DNA from: Erodium maritimum
Taxonomy: Eukaryota > Streptophyta > Magnoliopsida > Geraniales > Geraniaceae
Assembly (NCBI GenBank): GCA_963921825.1
Contig: OY997589.1
Coordinates: forward strand, 17,319,735-17,383,734
Direction of reading: 5' to 3'
DNA length: 64,000 nucleotides
Positions 3,744-47,186 of the stretch are shown in pieces (positions within the stretch are counted from its first letter, which is position 1; each line of letters starts with the position of its first letter). The notes below the pieces were generated by a model. That model saw only the letters and a list, made by a program, of their open reading frames with translations, had not been told where the DNA came from and searched no databases. The position numbers and the translations under genes were made by a program.

Positions 3744-3760
3744 ACACCCCACACTTAGAC

Positions 3761-3779
3761 TTTTCTCGCCACGAGAAAA
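3761..3779 (-). promoter_or_regulatory. Hairpin next to LARD-1 3' LTR / polypurine region
   Basis: Perfect inverted repeat, arms TTTTCTCG and CGAGAAAA with a 3-base loop, 18 bases outside the 3' LTR start. The same arms occur at 26025-26043 in the second copy with a different loop. The position is where a plus-strand primer (polypurine tract) is expected; a purine-rich GTGGGGTGT lies between hairpin and LTR. Confidence 0.45.
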
Positions 3780-5524: not shown

Positions 5525-6661
5525 TCAATCAGGAGGCCTCCCAAGAACCTCATACTTCCATTGCGTCCTCCTCTTCAAATATGGATGTGTATGCGGGAGA
5601 AGGAATACAATGTAGCAAATGAACCTCTTCCTTGAGTTCTGCACAAACTCCAAACTCAAGGCCAACATCATCAAGCTTGCCTTAATAGAATAATCATGAT
5701 CTAACTCATCTTGGCATAGCTTGGGAGGGATAAGAATCCCATGAATCGGAAAATACATATGCCCGAAAGGGTCAATAGCATCCACCGAAATAGAATAATA
5801 GCTCACAAACGGGGAATGAGAACTAGCAAATGAATCAAAAACTTTATGCTCAACATTAAATTTATAAATCAACGGTATAGGTTGAACATAAAGAATTGAT
5901 TTGCTAGAATCTAAAAATGAATCTCCCACACTAAATGGAATTTCGACATCATGCTCAATGTCTAACAACATAAAATCAATAGGAGATTCAAACATAACCC
6001 CTCTCTTGAGAGCATCTTCCATAGTACCCCTTGGATATCTAATAGATCTGTCAGCCAACTCTATGGATACTATGAGAAGATTTGGCTCAACAAGAGTTTG
6101 TGAACTATATTCTACAACTATACACTCAGTATTTACATCTACAGAATCCAATGCATCAACACTACATAGAGAATCAATTGTCATAATAGAAGTGGGATAA
6201 GAACTTGATACCTCACATTCCGCACTTACCTCTAAACTCATGGTTGAATCACAAGTTTCTTCTTCTGTTGTGTCACATAAGTGCTCAGAATGATCATCCT
6301 CAATGTGGACTGCTTGATCATCAAAGTTTGTCACATTAATCAATTGCATGAGATCATCCATTTGACCTTGAAGCTCTTGGACCATGGACGCTTGTTCCTC
6401 TTGTTTCCTCATCATCTCGTCCATCTTGTCCATCTCATCATGTCGCTTTTCCTCCTCCTCAAATCGGTTTGGGAAAGCTAGACAAAAATCCTCTTCACTA
6501 GACAATTCAAAAGTGGAAGCGTCCCCCCAATTTTTACTATAGGCCCTTGAATGCAAAATAACCTCACAATTGTAAAAATAATGATCATTAGCTCCACATA
6601 TATCACAATTCCCATTATTAGGGAACCAATTCTCCATAAAAGCTACGATGAAAAGAATCAA
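5525..6661 (-). CDS. LARD-1 conserved ORF: zinc knuckle, coiled coil and retropepsin C-terminal half
   Basis: Uninterrupted 378-codon ORF in the internal region, just downstream of the primer site. The likely working start is the second Met (MENWFPNN, at 6637). Residues 19-32 form a CCHC zinc knuckle, CDICGANDHYFYNC (C-x2-C-x4-H-x4-C). Residues 66-105 are Glu/Lys/Met-rich and should form a coiled coil. Around residues 200-260 the text ELADRSIRYPRGTMEDAL and SPIDFMLLDIEHDVEIPF follows the C-terminal half of the Athila/Tat retropepsin, but the preceding catalytic D-x-G-A-S segment is absent. It is therefore probably a gag-PR relic that kept an RNA-binding knuckle, not a protease. The copy at 23167 is also open and about 87% identical by eye. 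Function is unknown. Confidence 0.7.
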   Translation of the reverse strand: MILFIVAFMENWFPNNGNCDICGANDHYFYNCEVILHSRAYSKNWGDASTFELSSEEDFCLAFPNRFEEEEKRHDEMDKMDEMMRKQEEQASMVQELQGQMDDLMQLINVTNFDDQAVHIEDDHSEHLCDTTEEETCDSTMSLEVSAECEVSSSYPTSIMTIDSLCSVDALDSVDVNTECIVVEYSSQTLVEPNLLIVSIELADRSIRYPRGTMEDALKRGVMFESPIDFMLLDIEHDVEIPFSVGDSFLDSSKSILYVQPIPLIYKFNVEHKVFDSFASSHSPFVSYYSISVDAIDPFGHMYFPIHGILIPPKLCQDELDHDYSIKASLMMLALSLEFVQNSRKRFICYIVFLLPHTHPYLKRRTQWKYEVLGRPPD

Positions 6662-6727
6662 CTAGAAAATATATATAAGAATGAAACAGACGTAGCACAA
6701 ACTAAATAGCAAGGGTCGCCTAATTGC

Positions 6728-6745
6728 TCCCCGGCAACGGTGCCA
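6728..6745 (-). other. LARD-1 primer-binding site
   Basis: On the minus strand this reads TGGCACCGTTGCCGGGGA, 15 bases inside the 5' LTR end. The other copy has TGGCGCC at the start, so this one carries one substitution. The sequence is of the type used by Athila/Tat elements (tRNA-Asp class, from memory). It supports the Athila/Tat affinity of the internal ORF. Confidence 0.6.
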
Positions 6746-6760
6746 TAAAACTTGACGCCC

Positions 6761-8118
6761 TGCGGGTTTAAACGCAAACTTGAGCACGGCAAGTGCACCG
6801 GCCGTCAAGTAGTAATCGGATTTGAAGTCCGGAATATCGAGCCCAAAGGAGCAATAGACAATCACTCACTATTTAAAGCTTGTAGCTAAGCTATTTCTAT
6901 AAAAATCGAGTTTTTATGTTTTGAAAATAAACCTATAACGAATAAAAAAAACAGAATTTAACAGAGAGTTTTCTTATCTTAAATCAAGTGAAGAGAGATC
7001 AAGGGCATGGGTTCATCGAGTTCATTCCATAAAATTGAACACGTTCGATTGTAGCGATGTCGATTTATTTTAGAGCCAACGAGTTGTCTCGACTCTAGTC
7101 CTAACTTCTTTCGAACGATTCGGACCCTAATGAAATCTAACCACCGAGTTCTTTCGAATCACGATGTAGGAAGACCCAAAGCGTTTAGTTCTATGACAAC
7201 TTCTAACTTTCGACCAAACAAGTCTATAGCAATTGCAATTGTATTAACCCCGCTAGTTCTAGCTAGGGTTTAAATCCAATTTACGATCGATTTTAGACCA
7301 ATTAGAATTCTCCTTTTTCAAGCGTTAAATTCTAATTCAAAGCAATCATCAAGCCTACACGGGAGATAAAGCATTAAGCACAAATCGATCATAAACACTA
7401 AAACAACTCAACAATCACCACAATCGAAGCATCCAATTTATAGAAATCACTACTCTAATCCCCCATAACCCTAGAAATTGGGGGTTTAGGTGTTCATGGT
7501 GAGAAAATGCAAATATGAAAAGAAGCAAACAATTGAACTCATAATCAAGATGAAAGTTGAGATATAATCACCGAATTATTCGTCTAATGTTGCTCTTCCT
7601 CTTCTTCGATCTCTCTCCTTGATGCTCTTGAAAATCCACCAAAAGAAATCCACTTGTGTAGCTAACAATGAAGCTTCTCTCCAAAAATCAACACCCAAAT
7701 AAATCTCAAATGATGCTCTACTCACAAAATATAGATCCTCAACAAACAAATTCAAAATAATAAACTCTCTCTTTAATTCAAAAGAAAAGAAAATAAACTA
7801 TACAAAAAATGGTGCTTCTCCGTTCTGTGTTTCGTGCTCTCTGTTCTCTGTGTGCTAAAAAAATTCAAATGAAGAAGATGTCGTTCCCCTTTTGGTTGCG
7901 ACGCAGCAAAGTAGAGAATAGGGTTGAGCTCCTGCACTATACACGTTTCGGCAGAGGAGTGGAGGAGCTGAAAGGACAGCTGTCGCGCACAGGAGGAAGG
8001 GAGGCTGGAGTGGGCCAGGCTTGGACACGTGTCGCGCGGGCAGAGGTGGAGTGGCTGGGATGAGTGGCGGCTGGACCCGCCAGGTGTCGCCATGAGAGAA
8101 CGCCACATGAGTGGCGGC
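6761..8118 (-). repeat. LARD-1 5' LTR (truncated at its start)
   Basis: The own-strand end AAACCCGCA lies at 6761. It aligns with 2219-3320 and with the solo LTR at 8774-10685. It stops within about 8105-8128, where gypsy RT coding sequence resumes. Confidence 0.75.
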
Positions 8119-8127
8119 TCCTCGAGT

Positions 8128-8773
8128 TGTCGGGATTACCGCCTGTGGGCGAGGTGAAGTTCAGGATTGACCTGATACCGGGGACGGCACCGATATCGAT
8201 GGCTCCGTACCGGTTTGCACCAGCCGAGTTGGTCGAGCTGAAGCGACAACTCGAGGAGCTTCGAGAGAATGGATTTATCCGTCCGAGCACTTCGTCGTGG
8301 GGAGCGCCCGCACTCTTTGTGAAGAAGAAGGGTGGAGCGCTGAGGATGTGTATCGACTACCGGAAGTTGAACCGTGTCACGGTGAAGAACCTTTACCCGA
8401 TGCCGAGGATCGATGGCCTGTTCGATCAACTGAGAGGACCGAAGTGCTTCTCGAAGATTGATCTACGATCCGGGTATTATCAGTTGAGGGTTTAGGAGGA
8501 GGATGTGGCGAAGACCGCATTTCGGACTAGGTATGGGCACTACGAGTTCCTGGTGATGCCGTTCGGGCTGACGAATGCGCCTGCAGCGTTCATGGACCTG
8601 ATGAACGGTATGTTCCGACCCTACTTGGACCAGTTTGTCGTGGTATTCGTAGACGATATTCTGATTTATTATCCGAGTGAGGAGGCGCACGTGGAGCATC
8701 TCAGGACAATTTTGACGTTGTTGCGCACTCATCAGTTGTACGACAACCTGGAGAAGTGCGAGTTTTGGCTCGC
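8128..8773 (+). pseudogene. Gypsy reverse transcriptase, first part
   Basis: RNA-dependent DNA polymerase domain of gypsy element 1. Readable motifs in order are [84 protein letters not shown] and the catalytic FVDDILIY box (the F-V-D-D form of Y-x-D-D). A TAG at 8493-8495 follows QLRV, so the copy is broken. At 8769-8773 (CTCGC) the frame is cut by a solo LTR and resumes after it at 10686 with AEVKFLGHVVS, the normal continuation. Confidence 0.9.
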
Positions 8774-10685
8774 GGGTTTAAATCGCAAACTTGAGCACGG
8801 CAAGTGCACCGGCCGTCAAGTAGTAACGGATTTGAAGTTCGGAATATCGAGCCCAAAGGAGCAATAAACAAACACTTACTATTTAAAGCTTGGAGCTAAG
8901 CTATTTCTATAAAAAGTTGGTTTTTATGCTTCTAAAATAAACTAACAAGTAATGCAAATCAAGTAGAGCACTCGTAGCACGAAACCGAGAATTCTTAACT
9001 TCTTGAATCAAATGATGAAATTTCTAGGATATCGGGTTCATAGAGTTCATTCCATAAAGTCAAAAATACTCGATTGTTGTGATGAAGACTTGATTTAGAG
9101 GCAACGAGTCATCTCAACTCTAGTCCTAACTTCTTTCGAACGATTCGGACCCTAATGGAATCTAACCACCGAGTTCTTTCGAACCTCGATGTAGGAAGAC
9201 CCAAAGCGTTTAGCTCTATGACAACTTCTAACTTTCGACCAACCAAGCCTATAGCTATTGCAATTGTATTAACCCGCTAGTTCTAGCTAGAGTTTAAATC
9301 CAATTTATGATCGACTTTAGACTAATTAGAATTCTCCTCTTTCAAGCGTTAAATTCTAATTCAAATCAATTATCAAGCCTACCTGGGAGATAAAGCGTTA
9401 AGCACAAATCGATCATAAACACTAAAACAATTCAACGATCACAACAATTTAAAGCATTTAAAACATGGAAATCCCTACTCTAATCATCCAAAACCCTAGA
9501 AATTTGGGGGTTTAGTTGTTCATGATAATCAATGACATAGGTTTGAACCAACAAGTAAATGATTTCATAATGAGAATTAGAGAGAAGGTTTAGATACAAT
9601 CACCACAATTAATTGACAAAATGGTTGCTCTTCCCCTTCCTCCAAACCCTAGCTTTGATCTTCTTGTGTTGACAACAAATCCAAGTGTAGAAGCACCAAG
9701 AGACTCTCCTAAAGATGAATTTTCTCCAAGAACAATGACACCCTTGGCTCAAATCCCTCTCAAATCAATGAAGCTTCCTCTTGTGTTCCCCAAAATCTCT
9801 CCAAATAAAATCAGAAAATAAATAACTCTTTCTATAAAATCTCCTCTCAAATTAACTCTATAGGATGTATGTATCTTTGTTTGTGTGTAGAGAGAAAAAG
9901 AAAAAAAATAAAAATAAATGCTCAAGAATTGATCTCCTATTGCTCTGGTTCGGCGTTCCCCTTCCTCGCCTCTCTGTCTCAAAAAATTGAATAGCAGATG
10001 ATGATCTGGTGAGATGCGGCTGAGCAACCAAAGGGAGAGTGCTGCCCTAGACACGTGTTGGCAGAGGAGAGGAGAGCTGGAAGGGGACAGGTGTCGCGAG
10101 ATGGGGAGGTGGCGGCTGGAGTGTGCCGGCTAGGACAGGGGGCGGCAGCTGGGGCGGACAGGTGGCGGGGAAATGGGTGTTTGGCGGCTGGCGGCGGACA
10201 CGTGGCGGACGCAGGAGAGAAGGCGGTGCCACGTGGGTCAGGCAGGGACAGGTGTCGCGCAGGGGTGGAGTGGCGGCGCCAGTGCGCCACGTGGCGCGTC
10301 CTGGGAGCTCTGGCGGCTGGGCTGGTCGGCGCCATGTGTCAGTCTCTGATGGCCTGCTGCATTTTTGTTCCTTTTCCGCTATTTCGCTCGCTCCGGCTTC
10401 GTTTGGGCTCCGATCGATCTCGTTCTTGCGCCAAAAAATTCCTTTTTCCAAGACCTACAAAACAAGACCATTCATGAGTATATTTCGAAGCGACCAAAAT
10501 CAACCCTCTTAACGGTCCACAAGCACAAAACACCCAAAATACGCCGGAAATCCATCAAAACACCGAACATATCGATAAAATCAATTATTCATGCTAAATC
10601 TAAATATATGATAGAAAACCGGGACCAAAAACCTGTAAACTCGATATAAAGTGGCCCAATTATGTGTTAAAATGCACCCGCATCA
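8774..10685 (-). mobile_element. Solo LARD LTR inserted in gypsy RT
   Basis: Complete LTR of the LARD family on the minus strand, from TGATGCGGG at 10685 to TTTAAACCC at 8774. It is flanked by a 5-bp target duplication CTCGC (8769-8773 and 10686-10690), and the RT reading frame is restored exactly by removing one copy plus the LTR. No internal region is present, so this is a solo LTR left by LTR-LTR recombination. It carries the family's GC-rich region with G-box-like motifs (about 10050-10345). Short ORFs in it are not conserved between LTR copies. Confidence 0.85.
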
Positions 10686-11518
10686 CTCGCCGAGGTGAAG
10701 TTCCTCGGGCATGTTGTGTCCCGAGAGGGTATACTGGTCGATCCGGAGAAGATCGACGCGGTCTCGAAGTGGGCATGACTCACGAACGTCTTTGAGATCC
10801 GAAACTTCCCGGCTTGGCATGATACTATCGATGGTTTGTCCAGGACTTCTCATGCCTGGCCGCGCCGATGACTTCCCTGACATGCAAGGGAGCCGAGTTT
10901 GTGTGGACTGATGAGTGTGAGCACCTCTTTTACCGAGCTGAAGGCTCGTCTGACTACCGCTCCAATGTTGATAGTGCTGGAGCGCGGTGTCGGATATAAG
11001 GTGTATTCTGATGCGTCCATAAGGGACTGGGGTGTGTGTTGATGTAGTCCGGGAAGGTAGTTGCTTATGGCTCCAGACAGTTGAAGACACATGAGCGCAA
11101 CTACCCTACCCATGATCTAGAGTTGGCAGCAGTCGTCTTTGCGCTGAAGAGCTGGCGACACTACTTGTATGGAGAGAGATTCCGGGTGTTCTCGGATCAC
11201 AAGAGTCTCAAGTACATCTTCTCCCAGCGCGATTTGAACATGCGTCAGAGGCGGTGGATGGAGCTACTTGAGGAGTACGACTTCGAGCTACTCTACCATC
11301 CGGGCAAGGCGAACGTTGTCGCCGATGCTCTGAGTAGGAAGTCGACTCATTGCCTTGCCGGGATATCAGTCCGAGAGTGGGACATGATGGAGGAGTTGAG
11401 CACATTCGAGCTCGAGCTTTATGAGATCACCGATGGCGTGGCCATGTGTTCGCTGGTGGCTCAGCCCACACTAGTTGCTCGTGTGCTGGAGGCAAGGCCG
11501 AGGATGCTGAGACGGTAG
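10686..11518 (+). pseudogene. Gypsy RT end and RNase H
   Basis: Starts with the RT continuation AEVKFLGHVVSREG, then several stops and frame changes (10780-11045). The RNase H part is clear: VYSDAS near 11000, [45 protein letters not shown] and VADALSRK near 11320. This domain degrades the RNA strand of the RNA-DNA hybrid during replication. The frame stays open from 11081 to a TAG at 11516-11518. Confidence 0.85.
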
Positions 11519-12222
11519 AGATCTGGGAGAGGATTATCAACGGTGTTGACACCGAGGGTTGGGAGCAGGGTACTGATCTGGGTCTACGTTACCGAGGAGG
11601 GTTGTTTGTGCCGCGCGGTTGTAGAGATGATGTGTTGAGAGAATCTCATCACTCCCGTCTTGCTGTGCACCCGGGTGGCACCAAGATGTATCGGGATATC
11701 AGACGACAGTTCTGGTGGAGTGGGATGCGGAGAGCAGTTGCAGAGTTCGTTTCGAGATGCCTCCCCGGTCAGCAAGTGAAGGTCGAGCATCAGCGTCCCA
11801 CCAGTTTACTACAGCCATTGCCGATTGCACAGTGGAAGTGGGAGCACGTCACGATGAACTTCGTGTGTGGATTACCGAGGTCGCCGAGAGGGCACGACGC
11901 AATTTGGGTAGTGGTCGACCGACTGACCAAGTCGGCACACTTCTTAGCCATGAGGATGACTGATGCGGTTGACATTCAGAGTCGGTTGTACGTTTGGGAG
12001 ATCATACGTCTTCACGGGGTTCCGGTGTCGGTTGTGTCCGATAGAGATCCTTGATTCACCTCCCGGTTTTGGGAGAGCTTGTAGAGAGCGTTGGGGACCG
12101 AGGTCTTGCTTGGTACAACGTATCACCCACAGACCGACGGTCAATCAGAGCGCACGATTCAGATACTAGAGGATACGCTGTGAACATGTGTGTTGGACTT
12201 CCGAGGGTCATGAGAGGACCAC
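11446..12222 (+). pseudogene. Gypsy integrase
   Basis: DDE integrase of element 1. The N-terminal HHCC zinc domain is seen as HHSRLAVHPGGTKMY then FVSRCLPGQQVKVEHQ, where the second Cys of the usual C-x2-C is Gly. In the catalytic core the first acidic residue, normally in MDFV, is Asn (MNFVCGLP). The second lies in VVSDRDP at about 12037-12054, followed by TGA, and the QSER box lies near 12140. Coding similarity ends at about 12222 (LDFRGS...EDH), where LTR-like sequence begins, so the C-terminal domain is missing. Inactive. Confidence 0.85.
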
Positions 12223-13845
12223 ACGTCACAGTTCCGTGACGTCACCCGTGACGGGGAACCTCACGGTTCTGTGACCCGAACCATCACGAAGTCTATCAAG
12301 GCTCCGTGACATACCTGAGTTGGGCCTTTTGGGCCCATTTCATTGGATTTCGAGTAATTGGGACGATTATCTATAACCGAGTCCTTTTGGGGTTAATTGG
12401 GAATGCTTTCCTTTTTGAACCAATTGTGAATTACTCTTAATTCTAGTATTTAATTGTGATCCTAGACTTTGGACCCGAGCTCGGCGGAGGAGGATACTTT
12501 TGGACCTCGTGAAGTGACTAAGCGTTCGAAAAGCGTTCGATGTAGGGAAAGTAGCGAATACCGGTTTAATTGCGGAAAGTTACTAGTATGCATATAAGTT
12601 GCGAATACTTGATTTAATTGTTAGAATTGCATGATTAGGATGTGAGGAACGAGTGAAATGAGGGATAGCTTACGAGCCATGTCGAGCCGTAAGTTTGGGA
12701 ATTGTCGTGTTGTAGAAATGCATGCAGGCCATGTCGATCCCTTAGGCCATATGTTGATTGTGATGCCATGATCTATGATCTATGATTATCATGCATGATG
12801 TGTGGTTTATACGTTGTTAGGTTGAGAATCATGATATGGTATACTCGGTGTAGTATGTTGTTGCTATATGATCGGGTGCTTGATAGACCGATGTGAGGTG
12901 TTGCTGTAAGTTGGCTCCGTTGGTATACCGTGGTCGAACTATGGCATTGTGATGCGTCAGACTTTCTTGATGTATGTTCCAAGAGGATTTGTATTCCGGT
13001 ATGGTACCTACACCGAGGGGGTACGCCGGTGTAAGGTAGTACCTAGGCCACCGATGTAGGGTATGCGCGGTACCCCGGTGTGTGGTTCCGGTATGATACC
13101 TACATCGAGGGGGTATGCCGGTGTAGGGTATCTAGGCCGACGATTACTTGATCAGTGTTGTGATTGTGCCCCAACGGATTCCCGGGAAGACATCTAGGCC
13201 GATGCTGAGTGGTCATGTATGATGTATCGTGTTTGTGCCCCGATGTGGTTCCAGGAAGATATCTAGGCCGATGTTGTGTGGTCCGGTACGATATGGTTGA
13301 GTCGGGTTGTGGACAACCGGCGGGTTCGGGGACTGCGATACGGGACGTGTGATTGCTTTACTATGTATTGTATGTTTGATGATTGGGTAAGTGATGTGAG
13401 TACAGTGTGATAGTGTTCATGTGAGTGTGGTTGTGATGTTGTGTTCTCCGTGGAGGTCATTAGTGTTGTGCTTTGCTAGTATGCCCTAATTGGACGGTTA
13501 CTCGTGGTGACGAGCGGACACTCATCACCTTAACTACTTTTTCCTACTGAGCGAAAGCTCACCCCTTTACTTTATTGTTTCACAGATTTTGAGCGGGACG
13601 TGGCCTAGCAGGATTCTCGATGCTTGGGAGCTAGCGAGGGTCTTAGGCTAGCATTGTCTAGAGATGTACTGTTTATTTGCCATTAAACTCATTTATTACT
13701 TGGTTTTATCGAGCTGTGACTCATACCGTTATTGGGATCTTTTAAACTATTATTTGAGACCCATTTTGGTATTAAAATTGCTTTATTATTTATTATTTTA
13801 AATTCACGTCTCGAGTCCGGTCGAAACCGGATTTGGGGCGTGACA
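12223..13845 (+). repeat. Gypsy LTR fragment (5' part missing)
   Basis: Ends in the family terminus CCGGATTTGGGGCGTGACA at 13845 and contains the conserved stem-loop TGAGC-GAAA-GCTCA at 13548-13561. The first 1.2-1.5 kb of a typical LTR of this family is absent at the integrase junction. Subrepeats with CCGGTATGATACC and CCGATG motifs fill 12990-13290. It is either the 3' LTR of element 1 or the 5' LTR of element 2; deletions on both sides prevent a choice. Confidence 0.7.
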
Positions 13846-13925
13846 GTTAGTGACTTAAGTGTGTCGCTTTATGCGAATTTAAGAACTGAACATGTGCGTT
13901 TATCCGTGCAGCGGATATATACGAC

Positions 13926-15340
13926 ATGACGCCTACCTATGTACCACGAGGCACTAGGAGTCGGCCAGCTGGGGGCCGAGGGAAGCCGCCTACCATTGAG
14001 TCGGTAGGGGAAGCGAGTGCCCAAGGTACGTCCACTGAGGAGCACGTGAAAGATGAGGTCGGACCATCAGGGCTTCTGCCTAGTGTTCCGCCGGTCATGG
14101 AGCAGACCCATTCGACCACTCTAGAGGAGCCGGTACGCACTGTGCAGAGTCTAGTGGTGATCATCGCCCACAGAGAGGCTGCGGCCTCGGCACCCGAGAC
14201 TATGCCTGCTGCCACTACAGCTGCTGTCGTGAGGCCTGGTCAGGAAGCAGGCTACACCACCCAGATGCTGAGGGACTTTCTGAGGTTGGGTACGCCCACC
14301 TTTGCCGGGGAGCCATACCATGATGTAGCCGAGAGATGGATGGAGCAGATCACGAGGAACCTGGACACCTCAGAGATCGTGGATGATCACACGAGGGTGT
14401 CCTTCGCAGCGTTCCAATTGAAGGACGATGCTTACCACTAGTGGCGGCGTGAGCAGGGCAGAGTCGAAGATGACTTCCAACTGTTCGGAGAGCTGTTCCT
14501 GGAGCAGTATTTTTCGCAGTCAGCCCAGGAGGACAGGCATCAACACTTCCTGGAACTGCATCAGGGAGGGATGACGGTGTCGGAGTATGAGGCGAGGTTC
14601 ACCTCACTATCCCGCTTTGCACCGGAGATGGTGCAGACTGAGGCGCGTTGATGCAGGCGGTTTAAAGGGAGGACTTCATCCCTCGATTGTGGACCGAGTC
14701 ACAGCCCTGAGGACTCAGGTGTACTCGGAGATAGTAGATCAAGCACTAGCAGTGGAGCGACACTTTCGGGAGACCGCCAGGACCCAGGAGAGTAGGAAAA
14801 GGCCGAGTGACTTCTTGAGGCCGTCTGAGGTCCGTGACTAGAGGAGGAAGAGGACCTCAGGATCTTTCCGGCCGCAGACATAGTCTGACGGGATGCGACA
14901 GGTCGGATCCGTGGCATCCGTTGGACCTGCCTCATCAGAGCAGCTGTGTCACCTGTGCAGACAGCCGGGACATATAGCCCGAGATTGTTCGAGGAGCAGT
15001 GGGCCCGTAGCTCGCCCAGCGAGCGGTCAGACGAGATATGAGGAGAGGCCGAGTGACAAACAGCCGAGATGCTACCAGTGCGGACGACTAGGCACATCTT
15101 TGCTGGATGCCCCGAATGGGTTGGAGGTATGTCGGCACTGCGATCGCAACAGTCGCAGACCGGCCAGTCGCCTCAGTTCTCTCAGCATCAGGCTCAGGCG
15201 CCGAGAGCTCCCCAGTAGGCAGCGAGCGTGCCAGCGCCGAGACAACAGCAGGGAGCTACACAGCAGGTGGCCCTTCCACCACCCCCGAGGAGAAGACCTC
15301 AGGCACCGCATGGCAGAGTGTATGCGGTCACCGACTTCCG
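13926..15340 (+). pseudogene. Gypsy gag remnant, element 2
   Basis: Same gag family as 446-1746 and starting with the same MTPTYVPRGTRSR. Capsid signature near 14430 reads AYH followed by TAG in place of the usual WW. The frame continues with FLEQYFSQSAQEDRH, a frameshift near 14640, and a stop at 14839-14841. A CCHC knuckle CHLCRQPGHIARDC is readable at about 14947-14988, and a second one begins CYQCGR near 15070. At least three disablements are visible. Confidence 0.85.
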
Positions 15341-15394
15341 AGCTGAGGGACATGATTTCGATCATGAGATCGCTCAGGATAGGTGCTTCCCATT

Positions 15395-15806
15395 TAAATT
15401 TTGAGTGTCGTTGTTTTTGATACTGGAGTGTCACGTTCATTTACTTCTTCGTGTGCGCTGAATGTTGGGACTGAACTTAGAACCGTTGAACCCACCCCGT
15501 GCCTTGGCACGCCTGTTAGGGGTGTAGTAGTGTCAATTGTGAGTGTGAAATTAGAATAGCAGACCGTTGTTCCCTCGACGACCTTTCCGTACTCGACTTT
15601 TTCCTTCGAGTGTGATGAGAGAGTGTGAGAGCCAGATGGTGAAGTATCAAGCGTTCATCGATTGTTATCAGCAACGAGTGTCGGTGTTAGCAAGCCACAC
15701 GACGATCTCGCACGTACTGACGGCGAAACAGAGTTTGCCGACCAGCGTTGGCCGCAGAAGAGAAAGTACCGACCGTGCGGAGCCGAGGATGGTGCGAATT
15801 CCCTGA
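15395..15806 (+). pseudogene. Gypsy protease remnant, element 2
   Basis: Active-site text FDTGVSRSFTSS near 15410-15450 retains D-T-G. A later stretch YQAFIDCYQQRVSVLASH (about 15640-15705) corresponds to the segment after GMDWL in the intact family. Frames change between the two. No RT follows. Confidence 0.65.
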
Positions 15807-15839
15807 AATCATGTCCGAGGAATTGACCATAGGTGGCAG

Positions 15840-16532
15840 TGATTGCTAATGATATTACTCTGAGTGTTGATCTGTGTTGGCTGCTGTGATTACTTATGCT
15901 TGCTATGTGATCTTCTGTGATTTGAAATACAGTTATACATGAGTTTAGTGTATTGCCGTGCGAGTTCGCAAATGTGGTCGGTTGTGAGATAACCGTGATC
16001 GTTTTCTATTGAGAATTGTTAGGTGACGGGTGCTGAGAGCATAGTTGAGAAGAAATGTATGAGTTCGGTTCAGTGTTGAGTTTGATTTACGTGTTGCACC
16101 CGAGTGGGGATCAAGCGTTGTCTTGGGTTACTTGTTGAATTGATTCGTAGCTATTGTGCTTACTAGTATGCCCTAATTGGACGGTTACCCGTGGTGGTGA
16201 GCGGATAGCTCATCCCCTTAACTACTTTTTCCTACTGAGCGAAAGCTCACCCCCTTCATTATTGTTTTACAGGTTTCGATCGGGAGTTGGTTTAGAGGAC
16301 GCCTCAGAGCTGGGGAGCATGGCGAGAGTCCTTATTTTTGGGTTGTTTAGTGACGTACCTTCTTTGTATTAAACTTTGTTTTATTGTGGTACTCGAGCAT
16401 TTGACTCTTATTATCGGGATTTATGAGTTTGAACCATTGTTGGAGCTTATTTCATTTAAACTTACTTTATTTATGATTATTGTTTTTAGTTCACGTCTCG
16501 AGTCTGGTCAAAACCGGATTTGGGGCGTGACA
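15840..16532 (+). repeat. Gypsy LTR fragment (3' end)
   Basis: Last 700 bases of a Del-like LTR, ending GGATTTGGGGCGTGACA at 16532. It contains the twin stem-loops at 16197-16215 (GTGAGCGGATAGCTCAT) and 16236-16249 (TGAGC-GAAA-GCTCA) and a following TTTTACAG. It matches 62400-63098 by eye. The left boundary is approximate. Confidence 0.75.
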
Positions 16533-16540
16533 GACGGCCA

Positions 16541-17205
16541 CCGTCGAACCCATTCTATGGTCACCAGAAGAAGAAATGGTGTTGGTCATTGTGTGGCTTG
16601 AACATGCTCGGCTAGGGCAAAACATCTGTTACTGATCGGATATTTACAACTTCTATGTCTAATCGGCCTCTGATGCCGCCCCATTACGAACCGAGAAGCA
16701 GATTAAGGACCACTAGAAAAGGACGTCCATCAAATTAAGGCAATTCAATTTAATCTACCATGAAAAATTTCATGCTCGCTTGTTAGGGAAAAGTTGCATG
16801 TTTGGGTGTCGTGGAACAATAACCCATCTTATTGTCCCACCCCTCGGATCCCAAACCTTCTGACTGTGTTGCTTCAAGGCCTTCTTCAATCGGATCGTAT
16901 GTGTGTTCGATTGATAGAACTTTATCTTCTATCGGTTTTTGTCCGAAACCAAACCTCGATAATTCCAAGTCATAAACTTGGCCATCCAAACCTCCGAAAA
17001 ATAGTGCACAACAATACGAGGATACAAAGCGTGGCGACAGTATCGGGTACTTGAAGATCGATAGCAGTTGGATAATATTGGGGAACGGATATGTTAGAAG
17101 AGGATGTATCAATGTCACTCTCTTAGAGGAAAACAATTCTCGTCTACTATAAAGAGATCTAGCCTTAGAGGCTCAAAACTTAGCCTTGATAGCTCTGTAA
17201 CCTAA
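16541..17205 (+). pseudogene. Harbinger-type Myb/SANT (ORF1-like) remnant
   Basis: One frame read through three stops shows EPILWSPEEEMVLVIVWLEH, then LRTEKQIKDH and KLRQFNLIYHE. This is the pattern of the plant PIF/Harbinger accessory Myb/trihelix protein (WTPEED...W, ...K-QLK-HW...). A later segment in a shifted frame gives LLEENNSRLL and LALEAQNLALIAL, like the C-terminal coiled part of such proteins. In the element this protein helps the transposase bind DNA. The stops replace, among others, a Trp (DH-stop). The left side abuts an LTR fragment, so the N-terminus is lost. No functional product is expected. Confidence 0.5.
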
Positions 17206-17950
17206 TTGAAGATATTATTAGTTAAGAGTCATGAGAATGAATACCCGCAATGATAATAGATTTATTTAGGATATAAATGTTCCAAAATTATCTTATTTTT
17301 CTGTTCTTCCCTCGAAATTTGGGATTAATAGTATATGTTTTACCTTGACTATAGACTACTTCAGAATGGACAGAAATTATCACAAAATCAGTTTCCAAAT
17401 GTAATTTATTGATTGAAATAACACAACGATATTTCAGAACAAAATTTGACCAACATATGAGAATAGGAAGTACATTGAAATTCAACGAAGACGATCCTCA
17501 GAAAATTCATAGTTACGACACCACTTTGAATTGTCTCTCATAATAACTTTCCATCCGTGTTTGACGAATGAAACTCGATGTTTGTTTTTGTATCGATCGT
17601 TGGTCGCTTTGATAACATGGGCTTCGATTGTATTGACTGACTCCACCTTTTAGTTCGACTTCTACTAGTGATTTATGACTTATTTGGGATTTGGGGATAG
17701 AGATTTTCTAGAGATATAGTGCAGAAATTGATATACACCTTGTGCTAGTATTTGGCCTTGTTCTCGTGTGGAAAAGTCATGTCCACCCTATACAATTATC
17801 CTCTTCCGTCACATCTCATAGTGGACGGTTGTCAGGCCAAAGTCGTAATGGGACGAAACCATCGAAAATGATAAATATAGAGAAGTGAGAATATTATTTG
17901 GAAAAGTGATGAAAAAGACGTGGAGTGCAAATAATATTGTTTAAGGGGTA
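17206..17950. other. Unassigned AT-rich sequence
   Basis: Contains only short ORFs, no RNA gene and no repeat recognised by eye. It ends at the TTATACGGTA target copy of the following element. Confidence 0.4.
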
Positions 17951-17960
17951 TTATACGGTA

Positions 17961-19319
17961 GAGGAGAAATCTGGTGAGAACCATGTTTTAACGTAGGAAC
18001 CGCGAGAACCAATCTAAGTCATCCATTTTAGGAATGGATGGATGAGATGCAATTGAGTAGTTGACTGCAAAAAAACAACACTTTTTAGTAAGTGGTAAGG
18101 GCTTTTTAGTAAAACTATCATATTATTTTTTTTAACCAATTCACTAATTTAATTTTTCCCGCTTCGTTTGAACTCCGATTGGCTTCAAACTTGCGCCATT
18201 AGTTTTGTTTTTTTAAGGGCTTTCAATCAAGATCAGTCATGAATATATTATGAAGCACGAAAAAAAAAATTATTTTGGGGTTGATTTTTTTTTTTTATAA
18301 AAAATCTGGGTAATTTTTATCAACACTTTGCTCTGGATTTATCAACACTTTTACACTGGTTTTCTCAACACTTTACACTGGTTTTATCACCTCATTTTCC
18401 AAAACTGATCATAATTTTATCACCTCATCGCGTGCTTTTTATGAACACTAGTTTTATCAACACTAAACACTAGGTTTATCATTCAAATTACGTGTGTTTT
18501 ATCACCCCCATCACATGTTTTTTTGAAGCACAAATTTTTTTTTTATTTCGGGGCTAGTTTTTAAAGGAATTATATATGGGTAATTTTTATCAACACTTTG
18601 CTCTGGGTTTATCAACACTTTACCCTGTTTTTATCAACACTTTACACTGGTTTTATCACCCCATTCTCAAAAACTGATCATGATTTTTATCATCTCATCA
18701 CGTGCTTTTTATGAACACCAGTTTTATCAACATTAAACACTAGATTTATCATTGAACTACGTCTTTTTTATCACCTCATCACAAGTTTTTTTTATCAACG
18801 TTAAACTCTACTTATTATCAAAATTGAAAATGGTTTTTATCATCTCATTATTTGTTTCTTATCACCTCATTACATGTTTTTTTATCAACATTTAGCACTA
18901 GTTTGGTACTCCGATATAAAACATTTATTAGTGAAGATTTATCAACGCTCAACATTATTTTTATCACATTGATATAAATTTTTATTTTCGTGCTTCAAAA
19001 TATATTCATGACTGATCTTGATTTAAAGCCCTTGAAAAAAGAAAAATGTTGGCGCAAGTTTGAAGTTAATCGGAGTTCAAACGAATCGGGAAATATTAAA
19101 TTAGTGAATTGGTGAAAAAAAATAGACAATTGTCCACATGGCACCATGCTATTACAATTATATCCTTGCTTGTGTGAGAATGGTTGAAAGTGGCGTGAAT
19201 TTGGCTTGGATTGGGGTGATGATGTGGCATTTTGATGAGTGTTGGATCATAGATAAGTGTGGCTAGGATTGGTTCTCGCGGTTCCTATGTTAAGAGTGGT
19301 TCTCAATAGATTTCTCCCC
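17961..19319. mobile_element. MULE-like non-autonomous DNA transposon
   Basis: Bounded by a 10-bp direct repeat TTATACGGTA (17951-17960 and 19320-19329). Termini are inverted: GAGGAGAAATCT at the left and, on the other strand, GGGGAGAAATCT at the right, followed on both sides by GAGAACC and then a CCGCGAGAACCAAT block. A second inner inverted pair lies at about 18155-18265 and 18985-19105 (CGTTTGAACTCCGATTGG, GATCAGTCATGAATATAT). Target duplications of 9-11 bp with long inverted ends are typical of Mutator-like elements. There is no transposase; the centre is a repeat region. Confidence 0.65.
18290..18985. repeat. Degenerate TTTATCAACACT repeat array with a 285-bp duplication
   Basis: The core of the MULE-like element is built from variants of TTTATCAACACT and TTTATCACCTCAT. 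A segment beginning GGTAATTTTTATCAACACTT at about 18309 recurs at about 18590, so a unit near 285 bases is present about twice, with a third degraded part after it. No coding potential. Confidence 0.65.
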
Positions 19320-19540
19320 TTATACGGTAAGAGTAACACTATTTTTCTGATATATAGTATTTAAAAGATTTTCCAATGCATTTGGCCAATTCTTTTTGGC
19401 GGGCCAAACAGAATTATTGTCGAATCGTCCGTAAAATCCGTATGGGTCGTTAAATTCTTGTACCCTCGTAAATGGACCTATGGAATCGGGCATGTACTCG
19501 GTGTTGATCTTAAGTCACCTCCATTGCAGGTGTTTCAAGT

Positions 19541-20154
19541 AGGGTTGACAAAACGCATCGACCCCAACTGGAACCTGACATCCCCACCCCGTGTAAGGTG
19601 AGTTCGGGGCATAGATTTTTTAAGCAGACGGTAAACGAGGATTTTGGCGGGATGGGGGTGGGGTAAGCACTCCCCTCCTCCTCACATAATATCTTGTTTT
19701 AACATATGATATTTATTTATTTATATTTTATATCTAAAGATAGAAAAGTTGATTTGAATATGTCAAATAGTGATTTTTACTTATATCACCAACATATGAA
19801 TATAATATTTGTTTAAGGATTTTGCAAAGTATCGTGATTAAGGAAGCTGCTCGAAGTTCAAGATGAAAAATTACATGTTGTACCATAATAAAGTCGAGTT
19901 GGGGAAATCTAACTTCTATGTTATAAGACATTTCTTCAAAAATTTTCTATTATGTGTAAACTGTTATGAGACACAGATGTCATGTGATGTTTGTTTTATA
20001 TACATTGAGAATTGTGTGATGTCAAAATGTATCTTTTTTTCCAAAACTGATAATTCCTGTTCCCCACGAGATGAGAACAGAATGGAGTCAACATGAGGAA
20101 CATAACGAAGTCGAAATGCGGGATCCCCTCCCCAAACCCGCCTCATTGTCATCC
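19541..20154. mobile_element. Possible hAT-like MITE
   Basis: Left end AGGGTTGACAA and right end TTGTCATCCTT are inverted copies of one another with mismatches, and G-runs such as GGGGGTGGGG lie inside. This resembles a common plant family of short G-rich miniature elements. No clear target duplication was found. The Harbinger element starts directly next to it. Low confidence. Confidence 0.3.
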
Positions 20155-20157
20155 TTA

Positions 20158-21234
20158 GAGCATCTCCAATGGTTTGACATGACTAGTGTCAAGAAGTCAT
20201 GTTAAGAGGTGCTTTTTGGCTCCCTGACATGGCTTCTCCAATGGTCTGACATGACTAGTGTCAGGGGTCATGGTAGCACACTTTCAATAATTAAAAAAGG
20301 ACCCCAAATATTTTTAATATTTTGATTTGAAGTCAAATATAAAATGCATAATTATTATTTTTATTTAAAGCCGCATATAAAATACATTAAAATTCACAAT
20401 TAATATTTAATTGCGGCCACCATCTCCATATCTAGCCCAAATGTGTTCGATGAGATCAGCGTGGAGTTGGTGATGAACATCCCGATCCCGAATCCTTGTT
20501 CTCTGGCTCATGATACTTTCCCTGGTCACCGCCGGTAATGGTCCTCTACGGACGTTTGGGTCCGGGACACCAATATCTGCAAACGGATCAGTGGGTCACG
20601 ACATCCGTTCATCCTCAACGATCATGTTGTGCAGGATAACACAAGCAGTCATGATCACTGAGAGTGAACTCATATCCCACATTCGGCTCGGGCGAGTGAC
20701 GATGTGAAACCGGGCCTGTAGAACTCCAAACGCTCATTCGATATCCTTCCTACACGCCTCTTGGTATCTAGCAAAGCACCTTTGCTTCGGCGTTTGTGGA
20801 GCAGGTACTGACTTCACAAATGTTGCCCAAGCAGGATAAATTTCATCTGTCAAGTAATACGAGATTTCATATTCTCTACCGTTGACCTTGAACTTCACAT
20901 ATGGAGCGAAGCTTCGAAATGCATGGGAGAACAAGGTAGACCTATTGAGCACGTTGATGTCGTTGTTGGAGCCCGGTATCCCGAAAAAAGAGTGCCAAAT
21001 CCAAAGGTCTTGGGATGCAACGACTTCTAGCATGATTGATGGGACGTTCCTGTGGTCCATACTTGCGAACTATGCAGACCATGACACATGACAGTTCTTC
21101 CAATCCCAATGCATGCAGTCAAGACTCCATATCATCCGTGGGAAGCCACACTCTTCGTTGATTCGCAACAAACGTCTTGTATCTTCCACGGTCGGGCGTC
21201 GTAGATATGTCCGCCCATAAACCTTGATGACGCT
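20158..21234 (-). mobile_element. PIF/Harbinger element A, truncated
   Basis: The end at 20158 reads GAGCATCTCCAATGG, a terminal inverted repeat typical of plant PIF/Harbinger elements, preceded by the trinucleotide TTA (20155-20157), the family's target site. The other end is missing: the sequence breaks at 21234 where a LARD LTR starts. Confidence 0.75.
20607..21234 (-). pseudogene. Harbinger (HARBI1-like) transposase, C-terminal part, copy A
   Basis: DDE nuclease of PIF/Harbinger elements. Read on the minus strand from 21234: VYGRTYLRRPTVEDTRRLL, SLDCMHWDWKNCHV (first catalytic Asp), then a TAG, MDHRNVPSIMLEVVASQDLW (second Asp), FFGIPGSNNDINVLNRS, YYLTDEIYPAW, and the third acidic position in DIE followed by TGA where the family has Arg. 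It then continues [19 protein letters not shown] and [14 protein letters not shown] to a stop near 20607. Two premature stops make it inactive. The N-terminal half lies beyond the LARD insertion and is not present here. Confidence 0.85.
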
Positions 21235-23062
21235 TGATGCGGGTGCATTTTAACACATAAAAGGGCCACATTTTATCGAGTTATATAGGCTTTTAGTCCT
21301 GTTTCCTATCATATAGTTAGGTTTATCATGAATAATTGTGTTTCTCTGTTTTTTCGGTGTTTCAATGGAAAACCGATGTATTTTGGGTGTTTCGTTCTTG
21401 AGGATCGTCGAGAGGGTCGATTTAGTTTGCTCTGAAATATATTCATGACTGGTCTTGTTTTGCAGGTCTCGAGAAGAGGAATTTTTTGGCGCAACAACGA
21501 GATCGATCGGAGTTCAAACGAAGCTGGAGCGAGAAAAATAGCAAAAAAGGATGAAAAATGGAGCAACAAACCAGGAGATGACACGTGTCCCAGGCCCAGC
21601 CGCCGCTCACCCCAGCTCGCGACACGTGGCACCACCATCCCAACCGTCATTTCGCCCTATGCCGACAAGTGTCCAAGTCGGCTCTGCCCCTGCCTGCGTG
21701 GCTCGCCCACGTGACGCCATATGTCCCAGCCTGGCCCACGCTAGCCGCCCTCTCTCCTCAGCCCGCCACCTGTCCAAACACAGCCTCTCTCCCCTGCCGA
21801 CACCTGTCCACCCAGCAGCTGCCCTCTCACGCGTGGTCCATTCCTCGCGCGACACCTGTCCCGACTGTCTCCTCTCTTGTGTTGACGCTTGTTAGGGCAG
21901 CTTCTCTTCCCTCTTCATTTATGCTCAGCCGCAACTCGAAGGGGACTTTATGTACACCATTTCTACAGAGCACGGAGCACGAAGGAGAAACACCATTTTT
22001 TGTACAACATCTTTATTTCTTTTTTTTTATTTCTAGAGTTTGTAAGAGAGTTTATTATATTGAATCAATATTTGAGGATCTATTTTTTTGTGGGTAGAGA
22101 ACCATTTTGAGATTTATTTGGGTGTTGATTTTTGGAGACAAACTCCATTGTTGGCTACACAAGGGAATTTCTTTTGGTGGATCTTCAAGAGCTTCAAGGA
22201 GAGAGATCGAAGAAGAGGAAGAGCAACATTAGACGACTAATTTGGTGATTGTATCTCAACTTTTATCTTGATTATGAATTTAATTGTTTTCTCCTTTTCA
22301 TCTTTGCATTTTCTCACATGAACAACTAAACCCCCAATTTCTAGGGTTATGGGGGATTAGAGTAGTGATTTCATATAAATTGGATGCTTCGATTGTGGTG
22401 ATTGATGATTTGTATTAGTGTCTATGATTGATTTGTGCGTAATGCTTTACCTCCCGTGTAGGCTTGGTAATTGTTTCGAATTAGGATCTGTTGCTCGAAA
22501 GAGGAGGATTCTAGTTAAGTCAAAAATCGATCATAGGTTGGATTTAAATCCTTAGCTAGAACTAGCGGGATTAATACAATTGCAATAGCTATAGACTTGT
22601 TTGGTCGAAAGTTAGAAGTTTTCATAGAGATTAACGCTTTGGGTCTTCCTACATCGTGATTCAAAAGAACTCGGTGGTTAGATTCCATTAGGGCCCGAAT
22701 CGTTCGAAAGAAGTTAGGACTAGAGTCGAGACAACTCGTTGCCTCTAATATAAGTCGACATCGCAACAATCGAACGTGTTCAATTTTATGGAATGAACTC
22801 GATGAACCCATGCCCTTGATCTCTCTTCACTTGATTCAAGATAAGAAAACTCTCTGTTAAATTCTGTATTTTCTTTTTAGTCGTTATAGGTTTATTTTCA
22901 AAACATAAAAACTCGGTTTTTACCGAAACAGTTTAGTTACAAACTTTGAATAGAGAGTGATTGTCTATTGCTCCTTTGGGCTCGATATTCCGGACTTCAA
23001 ATCCGATTACTACTTGACGACCGGTGCACTTGTTGTGTCCTGTTTTCGCGTTTAAACCCGCA
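21235..23062 (+). repeat. LARD-2 5' LTR
   Basis: 1828 bases. The GC-rich part (21575-21900) holds a run of degenerate ACACGTGTCC-like motifs: GACACGTGTCC, GACACGTGGC, AAGTGTCC, CCCACGTGAC and GACACCTGTCC. The AT-rich 3' half carries the block shared with the other LARD LTRs. Confidence 0.85.
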
Positions 23063-23077
23063 GAGCATCAAGTTTTA

Positions 23078-23095
23078 TGGCGCCGTTGCCGGGGA
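23078..23095 (+). other. LARD-2 primer-binding site
   Basis: TGGCGCCGTTGCCGGGGA begins 15 bases after the LTR end, the same spacing as in copy 1. It would prime minus-strand synthesis; the type matches Athila/Tat elements. Confidence 0.65.
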
Positions 23096-23166
23096 GCAAT
23101 TAGGCAACCCTTGCTATATAGTTTGTGTTACGACTGTTTCATTTCTTTTTGTATATATTCTTTTAG

Positions 23167-24303
23167 TTGATTCTTTGCATCGTAGCTTTTATGGAGAATT
23201 GGTTCCCTAATAATGAGAATTGTGATATATGTAGAGCTAATGATAATTATTTTTACAATTGTGAGGTTATTTTGTGTTCAAGGGCCTATAGTCAAAATTG
23301 GGGGGACGCTTCCACTTTTGAATTGTCTAGTGAAGAGGATTTTTGTCTAGCTTTCCCAAACCGATTTGAAGAGGAGGAAAAGCGACATGATGAGATGGAC
23401 AAGATGGACGAGATGATGAGGAAACAAGAGGAACAAGCGTCCATGGTCCAAGGGCTTCAAGGTCAAATGAATGATCTCATGCAATTGATTAATGAGACAA
23501 ACTTTGATGATCAAGTAGTCCACATTGAGGATGATCATTCCGAACACTTATGTAACACAACAGAAGAAGAAACTCATGCTTCAACCATGAGTTTGGAGGT
23601 AAGTGCGGAATGTGAGGTATCAAGTTTTCATCCATCTTCTATTATGCCAATTCAATCTCCATGTAGTGTTGATGCATTGGATTATATAGATGTAAATAAT
23701 GAGTGTATAGTTGTAGAAAATAGTTCACAAACTCTTGTTGAGCCAAATCTTCCCATAGTATACATAGAGTTGACTGACAGATCTATTAGATATCCAAGGG
23801 GTACTATGGAAGATGCTCTCAAGAGAGGGGTTATGTTTGAATCTCCTATTGATTTTATTTTGCTAGACATCGAACATGATGTCGAAATTCCATTTAGTGT
23901 GGGAGATTCATTTTTAGATTCTTGCAAATCAATTCTTTATGTTCAACCTATACCGTTGATTTATAAATTTAATGTTGAACATAAAGTTTTTGATTCATTT
24001 ACTAGTTCTCATTCCCTGTTTGTGACTTATTATTCTATTTCGGTAGATGCTATTAACCCTTGTTGGCAGGTGCATTTTCCGATTCATGGGATTCATATCC
24101 CTCCCAAGCTATGCCAAGATGAGTTTGATCATAATTGTTCTGATAAGGCAAGCTTGATGATGTTGGCCTTGAGTTTGGAGTTCCCACAAAACTCAAGGAA
24201 GAGATTCGTTTATTGCATTGTGCTCCTTCTCCCACCTTCACATCCATACTTGAAGAGGAGGACGCAATGGAAGTATGAGGTTCCTGGGAGGCCTCCTGAT
24301 TGA
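23167..24303 (+). CDS. LARD-2 conserved ORF: altered zinc knuckle, coiled coil, retropepsin C-terminal half
   Basis: Second copy of the 378-codon ORF, open from end to end. The likely working start is MENWFPNN at 23191. The knuckle reads CDICRANDNYFYNC, so the His of the CCHC pattern is Asn here and zinc binding is probably weakened. The stretch YPRGTMEDALKRGVMFESPI to DIEHDVEIPFSVGDSFLDS is essentially identical to copy 1, and this is the part that matches Athila/Tat retropepsins. About 50 of 378 residues differ between the copies with no stop or frameshift, more consistent with selection on source copies than with drift. The catalytic D-x-G motif is absent. Role unknown; an RNA-binding gag-like relic is the simplest reading. 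Confidence 0.7.
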   Translation: MILCIVAFMENWFPNNENCDICRANDNYFYNCEVILCSRAYSQNWGDASTFELSSEEDFCLAFPNRFEEEEKRHDEMDKMDEMMRKQEEQASMVQGLQGQMNDLMQLINETNFDDQVVHIEDDHSEHLCNTTEEETHASTMSLEVSAECEVSSFHPSSIMPIQSPCSVDALDYIDVNNECIVVENSSQTLVEPNLPIVYIELTDRSIRYPRGTMEDALKRGVMFESPIDFILLDIEHDVEIPFSVGDSFLDSCKSILYVQPIPLIYKFNVEHKVFDSFTSSHSLFVTYYSISVDAINPCWQVHFPIHGIHIPPKLCQDEFDHNCSDKASLMMLALSLEFPQNSRKRFVYCIVLLLPPSHPYLKRRTQWKYEVPGRPPD

Positions 24304-26024: not shown

Positions 26025-26043
26025 TTTTCTCGGGGCGAGAAAA
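26025..26043 (+). promoter_or_regulatory. Hairpin next to LARD-2 3' LTR
   Basis: Arms TTTTCTCG and CGAGAAAA with loop GGG, followed by a purine-rich stretch and the LTR at 26061. Counterpart of 3761-3779. Confidence 0.45.
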
Positions 26044-26060
26044 GTCTAAGTGTGTGGTGT

Positions 26061-27824: not shown

Positions 27825-27912
27825 GAGCGTCAAGTTTTATGTGGAGCAATGACTTCTAGCATGATTGTAGGAACGTTCTTGTGGTCCATACTTGCAAACT
27901 ATGCAGACCATG

Positions 27913-46885: not shown

Positions 46886-46923
46886 TGTTGAACTTGCTTG
46901 TGATTGTAATTGTGGTTACCTGA

Positions 46924-47186
46924 GTGAGAGAGGTTACTGAGACAGGTCGACCGCCTGGCCCGACTTTGTGTCGGGGAAGCGTGTGAGTGAGAGAGGTTAC
47001 TGAGACAGGTCGACCGCCTGGCCTGAGTGGTTCGGCAAAGCGCGAGAGTGAGAGAGGTTACTAAGACAGGTCGACCGCTTGCTTGATTGGTTCGGCAAAG
47101 CGCGCGAGTGAGAGAGGTTACTGAGGCAGGTCGACCGCCTGGCCTGAGTGGTTCGGCAAAGCGCGTGAGTGAGGGAGGTTACTGAG
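46924..47186 (+). repeat. 59-60 bp tandem repeat array 2
   Basis: Four to five units containing GAGAGAGGTTACTGAGACAG and GTCGACCGCCTGGCC. The sister LTR has one or two units (28480-28600, reverse orientation). Confidence 0.85.

Follow-up and report, generated by a model that had tools for sequence, protein, structure and literature searches.

The window analysed here is a 64,000-nt stretch of the 763-Mb genome of Erodium maritimum (contig OY997589.1, positions 17,319,735-17,383,734 of the forward strand). Judging from its sequence, it probably holds two copies (A on the minus strand, B on the plus strand) of a non-autonomous Athila-like long terminal repeat (LTR) retrotransposon of the large retrotransposon derivative (LARD) kind, both with the same open reading frame (ORF) of 378 codons. 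Comparison with copies drawn from the rest of the genome shows that this reading frame was kept open in lineages that transposed. On balance, the element is predicted to encode a single protein of ~370-400 residues, in which a putative zinc knuckle is followed by a protease-like half that lacks its active site, and the sampled Gags of an autonomous element that appears to be its partner lack such a knuckle. The reading that we favor is that the LARD protein serves as a nucleocapsid-like, RNA-binding adaptor used with the particles of this partner.

A reading frame kept open in lineages that transposed

A preliminary description of the window reported a maintained frame that is open over 378 codons in both copies while differing at about 50 residues. 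The frames are open over that length (Table 1), with 75 nt out of 1137 and 50 residues differing between them; however, the pair by itself is insufficient to establish maintenance. Substitutions are distributed 27/25/23 over the codon positions, the Nei-Gojobori dN/dS is 0.65, and the 50 amino-acid changes compare with 53.5 +/- 3.5 expected when changes of these kinds are placed at random. Under neutrality, the chance of zero stops between the copies is 0.07. The sole hint of maintenance within the pair is the count of indels, with 0 in the ORF and 10 in the non-coding 3' internal region (INT3). It is the wider genome sample that shows maintenance.

This sample was drawn with a non-coding flank query (window positions 24310-25700, downstream of the ORF), chosen to avoid picking intact ORFs. 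The best 40 of 1266 candidates were scored, and the 36 examined consist of 28 LARD-type and 8 gag-pol-type copies; the other four hits were three partial matches and a tandem duplicate. Other genome searches scored the best 109 of 1491 candidates and, with a Gag query, the best 95 of 4340. As the best-scoring candidates alone were scored, old and decayed copies are under-represented. Dropped before the counts were L022 (the same as L002), L001 (the same as copy A), the 5'-truncated L010, L006 and L007 (tandem repeats of L005), the duplicates L046 and L075, and L045 (broken, diverged and unaligned). The alignment comprises 67 ORFs, 27 selected on DNA and 40 selected by protein similarity, the latter leaning to intact frames. 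Variants are called "shared" or "private" by numbers of copies, not by tree events.

Stops in most genomic copies, the outcome that the preliminary description had named as speaking against a maintained protein, are not what we found: among these best-scoring candidates, the whole frame from the ATG is present in 19 of the 28 flank-drawn LARD copies, broken in 8 and 5'-truncated in 1. In the 27 alignable copies, shared gap runs are multiples of three in 6/6 cases in the ORF (at 5 places) versus 1/13 in a 600-bp flank (at about 8 places), and of the private gaps in the ORF 4/9 have such lengths. Across all 67 copies the corresponding ORF counts are 8/8 shared and 4/9 private. None of the 175 shared variants in the DNA-selected copies creates a stop in frame, compared with 13/171 and 13/177 (together 26/348) for the same columns in the two alternative forward frames (Fisher 2.2e-5), and private in-frame variants give stops at the neutral rate (10/258). 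With 67 copies, shared stops number 3/304 in frame versus 38/607 in these two frames. The most economical interpretation is that a copy decays neutrally once it has inserted, while the lineages that transposed retained the frame.

These counts bear directly on the idea that the ORF is a passive relic, open by chance in young copies. The non-significant test on the window pair would fit this idea, as would a genome search that favours well-preserved copies and the existence of young insertions: LARD copies elsewhere in the genome have LTR-LTR Kimura two-parameter (K2P) distances down to 0.001 (0.025 in copy A and 0.034 in copy B), a dating limited by several LTR pairs that are cut or nested and made without the values for L009, L019 and L021 (0.125-0.21), which come from mixed or short pieces. 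The shared gap runs and the absence of shared stops contradict it, however, and on the out-of-frame and flank controls for stops and indels we rejected the passive relic as extremely improbable.

At the amino-acid level, the ratio of nonsynonymous to synonymous variants over its neutral expectation (N/S, codons 9-378) stands at 0.64 for shared variants (p=5e-4) and at 1.00 for private ones in the 67 copies, the corresponding values in the 27 DNA-selected copies being 0.68 and 1.09. The dN/dS check suggested with the preliminary description is thus borne out for shared variants, with values below 1 (0.64-0.71), and fails for private ones, with values of ~1. In the other forward frames the shared-variant N/S is 0.96-1.10. 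Within the protease-like part (residues 195-278), variants in >=2 copies number N33:S23 versus N67:S18 for private ones (Fisher 0.014), and variants in >=5 copies number N6:S10 (Fisher 0.0016). In the knuckle (residues 19-32) a single amino-acid alternative is shared, where stretches of 14 codons average 9.2; equally low values occur in 10 of 357 windows of this size, some of which overlap the knuckle. Private variants therefore look neutral, and shared ones appear constrained, mainly in the protease-like part.

This unevenness matters for the possibility that the open frame is kept for a reason at the RNA level, such as escape from nonsense-mediated decay or packaging coupled in cis to translation, with a protein that does nothing. 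Such selection would account for the purging of stops and frameshifts even though the linker and C-terminus are near neutral in amino acids. Yet selection on the frame only predicts neutral N/S throughout, whereas the constraint falls on the protease-like and knuckle parts, and the ORF is no arbitrary frame, being a diverged relative of gag-pol. We consider this explanation unlikely.

The predicted protein and its autonomous partner

Both ORF copies begin at TTG in the frame listing, and an in-frame ATG at codon 9 is kept in 67/67 aligned copies; translation likely starts there, and the protein is thus probably ~370 aa long. ORF lengths fall into classes of ~378, 392, 400 and 414 aa that are set apart by in-frame inserts (in L009, L011, L017 and others). 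From its N-terminal end, the protein has a CX2CX4HX4C knuckle (residues 19-32), then a charged stretch and a loose linker, and after these the segment containing YPRG. As first described, the knuckle is intact in the minus-strand copy and carries a His to Asn change in the plus-strand copy. This change, His27Asn, is exceptional, with His present in 65/67 copies. The other ligands are kept in 66 (C19), 67 (C22) and 67 (C32) copies, and all four occur together in 64 of the 67 LARD ORFs. A weak AlphaFold structure model (5-row alignment) has a helix over residues 57-110, with block values of the predicted local distance difference test (pLDDT) of 59-74 over residues 71-110, and a coiled coil is probable in this part of the protein.

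The preliminary description recognised a gag-protease hybrid without D-x-G. No D-x-G lies ahead of the YPRG segment; the protease part of the hybrid is clear, and the nucleocapsid part is indicated by motif and a weak alignment. Residues 192-297 match the protease of the autonomous element described below with 37% identity over 106 aa (E=1e-18), and the alignment starts immediately behind the D-L-G active-site segment of that protease. Homology to retropepsins is thus accompanied by lack of the catalytic D-x-G. The zf-CCHC and retropepsin profile searches proposed earlier gave no Pfam match over cut-off, and the protease-like piece had no Pfam match at all, which goes part of the way towards one of the outcomes that the preliminary description had named as speaking against it. 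Set directly against the partner protease, however, the ORF shows clear similarity. The knuckle has the CX2CX4HX4C ligands but stays below the curated profile cut-off, unlike two other gag pieces of the window that reach zf-CCHC. These pieces, at 380-2057 and 13840-15531, are two copies (76%) of a gag piece from a different element. With the protease-like piece as query, the best match among solved structures had E 1.4, and a search of viral contigs with the ORF returned no match. From these comparisons, the ORF is clearly related to the protease part of Athila-like gag-pol, and its motif and weak alignment suggest a relationship to the nucleocapsid part.

The other 8 flank hits carry the same INT3, from the equivalent of window position 24315, joined to an Athila-like pol. 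Two of these copies were read over ~3.4 kb, and the remaining six are 97-98% identical to these two over 1300 bp. The partner pieces carry reverse transcriptase, RNase H, integrase, protease and gag (Retrotrans_gag, 4.7e-22); the protease piece matches Asp_protease_2 at 2.7e-4 and 22 bits, below the cut-off of 24.3. The 18-base primer binding site (PBS) of the LARD is identical in 2/2 partner leaders, the LTR tail plus leader is 83% and 80% identical and the LTR head 82-84%, and the LTR start TGATGCGG is common to both. The DLGAS-type protease, the type of PBS and the lack of a chromodomain among the matches listed for the integrase pieces point to the Athila/Tat lineage. A search with Pfam ATHILA (PF03078) listed 44 places, none of them at the partner gag places listed by the Gag search. 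LARD and partner units also occur in head-to-tail arrays with regular spacing and equal scores or identity (Table 1), a pattern that unequal LTR recombination would produce.

A single CCHC array is usual in Athila/Tat Gags (PMC2577118), and the Gag of Diaspora has CX2CX4HX4C (PMC1142308); here and below, publications are cited from the parts of their open-access text that we could consult. In the partner Gag, we found the CCHC motif in 0/17 copies showing the relevant region, in any frame of the fetched pieces, and in neither of two longer partner pol pieces. The 17 Gags comprise 7 from the flank sample, including a tandem pair, and 10 from the top of the Gag list; L088, which is without the Gag region, was left out. 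The LARD ORF therefore holds and keeps exactly the motif that is missing from the sampled partner Gags, which makes ideas of RNA binding or help in packaging more specific.

An ordinary semi-autonomous element might instead top up Gag for its partner, as proposed for RLG_Quinta and RLG_Sabrina_SA, with which the LARD has in common the layout, the shared LTR start and PBS, and the recombining flank (PMC11302176). Against this, Retrotrans_gag, which matches the partner Gag at 4.7e-22, has no match in the window ORFs P0001 and P0002 (E up to 10), nor in the long form L017 (E up to 1). We rejected Gag dosage, to which we would give little credence, on the capsid domain not being found.

Over ~585 bp of INT3, LARDs have a mean identity of 0.937 to each other and of 0.930 to partners, and partners of 0.942 to each other. 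A tree of this region for 35 copies (L029, a tandem copy of L028, was left out) needs three type changes, and 0/200 bootstrap trees need only one. The ORF length classes are mixed in the tree, which indicates recombination among LARDs too. INT3 thus appears to be almost common property of LARD and partner, whereas their coding parts are very different. A comparable flank pattern in RLG_Quinta A and B was ascribed to template switching (PMC11302176).

Possible roles of the LARD protein

If the LARD protein is an adaptor, it would be translated from the codon-9 ATG, and the partner would provide capsid, protease, reverse transcriptase, RNase H and integrase. The LARD knuckle would bind element RNA, and the coiled coil together with the dead protease half would dock on the Gag or Gag-Pol of the partner. 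LARD RNA, and perhaps partner RNA too, would then be packaged into partner particles, with partner enzymes reverse-transcribing and integrating the LARD. Co-packaging could allow reverse transcriptase to switch templates, which would explain a near-identical 3' flank despite distant coding parts; it would be the natural reason for the common INT3.

A more far-reaching version, which is conceivable but doubtful, is that Gag has been split. The autonomous element would have lost its knuckle, and the LARD would carry it on a capsid-less protein docked by the dead protease half. Each would then depend on the other, and together they would form a two-RNA retroelement in which both RNAs are packaged and recombine.

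The protein could also be a regulator or competitor, i.e., a Gag/protease fragment that disturbs the assembly or copy number of the partner in the manner of Ty1 p22, a fragment that interferes with element assembly or copy number. The LARD protein is without a capsid and a catalytic Asp and keeps parts that may permit dimerisation, as such a fragment might. However, an element that depends on its partner gains little by blocking it, and the knuckle ligands are kept although a pure blocker would not need them. We regard this role as quite improbable.

Several observations weigh against the adaptor reading or temper its evidence. The proposal is drawn entirely from sequence comparison, and the AlphaFold model of the ORF is poor (mean pLDDT 34.8) and was not relied on. 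Pfam searches with the whole window ORFs gave no gag, retropepsin or CCHC match over cut-off; on short pieces, the knuckle reached zf-CCHC_3 at E 0.035-0.091 and CLIP1_ZNF at 0.0017, all sub-cut-off. The N-terminal half aligns weakly with the Gag of the partner, with a shuffle P of 0.001 for the long form L017 and 0.12 for copy A. Of the two partner copies read over the protease, one has D-L-G-A-S and the other is without that stretch.

As for the frame, the Fisher value for the contrast in gap runs between ORF and flank (2.6e-4) is too small, because the flank runs cluster, 7 of the 13 lying at two neighbouring places, and two C-terminal stop variants are each carried by 2/67 copies. Whole-ORF amino-acid constraint is weak. 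Shared-variant N/S is also low in one reverse-strand frame (0.76) and in two flank frames (0.66-0.74), so that the whole-ORF value is supportive and not decisive. The protease-like part differs from the linker at Fisher 0.052 with a threshold of 2 copies, which is borderline, and at 0.012 with 5, where the region borders and the five-copy threshold were picked after seeing the data.

On the side of the partner, 10 of the 17 Gags are the best matches to one copy and are therefore alike by choice. A second Athila-like family (L090-L095, ~56% identity) shows no CCHC in 6/6 Gag pieces aligned, and if this family does without such a companion, the knuckle may be dispensable. Finally, with the partners constrained to a single clade in the INT3 tree, the approximately unbiased test gave a borderline result (p 0.055).

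Window elements and comparison with known systems

Copy B is a full element, and in copy A both LTRs are cut at their outer ends (Table 1). The PBS TGGCGCCGTTGCCGGGGA is exact in 16 of the 20 LARD stretches searched. It is probably of the tRNA-Asp type. In wheat relatives (Sabrina-type), the PBS was assigned to tRNA-Asp (PMC9744471). Among all copies with both borders testable, 0 exact 5-base matches were found as target-site duplications at the assumed borders. The structure is that of a LARD, with two LTRs, a PBS, a polypurine-like tract and an internal region without reverse transcriptase or integrase. Between the LTRs of copy B, the 378-codon frame is the sole ORF of >=150 aa; with this ORF maintained, the usual "no coding capacity" of LARDs does not apply.

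Table 1. Features of the two LARD copies in the window, and arrays elsewhere in the genome.
Feature	Positions	Strand	Remarks
5' LTR, copy B	21235..23077	+	start TGATGCGG, 3' border about 23077; self-BLAST vs right LTR
Primer binding site, copy B	23078..23095	+	TGGCGCCGTTGCCGGGGA
ORF, copy B	23167..24303	+	378 codons from TTG; ATG 23191; knuckle His27->Asn
Protease-like segment, copy B	23740..24057	+	residues 192-297
INT3 (non-coding 3' internal region), copy B	24304..26060	+	from 24315: ~92% identity to gag-pol partner
3' LTR, copy B	26061..27839	+	self-BLAST
5' LTR, copy A	6746..8106	-	outer end truncated
Primer binding site, copy A	6728..6745	-	1 substitution vs copy B site
ORF, copy A	5525..6661	-	378 codons from TTG; ATG 6637; knuckle intact
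CX2CX4HX4C knuckle, copy A	6566..6607	-	residues 19-32; read from sequence
Protease-like segment, copy A	5771..6088	-	residues 192-297; aligned to partner protease behind D-L-G
INT3 (3' internal region), copy A	3744..5524	-	
3' LTR, copy A	2221..3743	-	outer end truncated
Head-to-tail arrays	L005-L007 (C1:149634170-149644998); C2:81260076-81266029; L043/L089 (C6)		

A third LTR of the same kind lies at 8772-10685 (minus strand); it is more diverged (~75-84% to copies A and B), has no internal region, and is apparently a solo LTR inside the remnant of another element. The left flank of copy B (21085-21233) is a 97% copy of 33123-33271, which belongs to a Plant_tran (PF04827) transposase-like gene at 33075-33800. 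This flank is not continued on the right of copy B, which thus sits in a rearranged or nested site. The window also contains a piece of an NPH3-family gene (34825-36003, minus strand, E 4.5e-69), a 541-codon frame with an RRM (39915-41540, plus strand) that includes, at 40148-40277, a 57-bp repeat (divisible by three), and tandem arrays at 46175-47186 with units of ~58-61 bp and also periods of 117-121 bp.

A coding LARD had been thought unexpected, but there are precedents in print (PMC2410132, PMC9744471, PMC11302176, PMC8704663), and the element appears to be of a known kind, the semi-autonomous LTR elements. Its PBS and LTR ends are shared with an autonomous partner, and it has a gag-derived protein under selection, the gag-derived N-terminal part being recognised by motif and weak alignment. 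Plant non-autonomous elements are numerous and are commonly filed as non-coding parasites. An in-frame nucleocapsid-like protein opposite a presumed partner without a knuckle would turn the choice between parasite and mutualist into a testable question of RNA packaging, and would indicate that selection can act on a gag remnant without a capsid. Searches based on the GAG domain will miss such a class, since the whole ORF matches none of the gag, protease or knuckle models of Pfam.

The non-autonomous Athila families of Arabidopsis resemble the LARD in being whole families without pol, with intact, selected ORFs and recombination between families, and their gag is under purifying selection (PMC2410132). 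They keep gag (and env), however, whereas in the LARD no capsid domain was found and part of a protease is present; a term search of the main text of that paper found no mention of zinc, CCHC or protease. The RLG_Sabrina elements of wheat and barley, described together with RLG_WHAM and with RLG_Wilma/BAGY2 as proposed partner (PMC9744471, PMC5738225), are likewise non-autonomous members of the Athila clade that have PBS and LTR termini in common with an autonomous partner (PMC9744471). Their forms carry gag-pro, replaced coding segments or unrelated short proteins, with one partial-proteinase variant (PMC9744471, PMC5738225). By these published descriptions, the LARD is set apart by the combination of a knuckle, a coiled coil and a dead protease half, with no capsid and with a knuckle-less partner Gag (PMC9744471).

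In einkorn, RLG_Cereba and RLG_Quinta form a comparable autonomous/non-autonomous pair, in which Quinta contributes a Gag-type protein and has a diverged coding segment between >90% identical flanks, explained by template switching (PMC11302176). Unlike the LARD, Quinta has a recognisable Gag, a centromeric partner with a CR domain, and a proposed role in Gag dosage (PMC11302176). TR-GAG elements are also LTR elements with a single ORF, one of which transposed in ddm1, but they are defined by a GAG domain (PMC8704663), which Pfam did not find in the LARD ORF. The Diaspora element of soybean has an Athila-like gag with a CX2CX4HX4C finger spaced as in the LARD and a DLGAS protease like that of the partner; its knuckle and protease, however, lie within one autonomous polyprotein (PMC1142308). 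Our search of the open-access literature, as far as its text could be consulted, did not turn up any non-autonomous element with a knuckle protein that lacks a capsid. Within that literature, what sets the Erodium LARD apart from the known semi-autonomous elements is a capsid-less, knuckle-bearing protein with a dead protease half, opposite a partner whose Gag has no knuckle.

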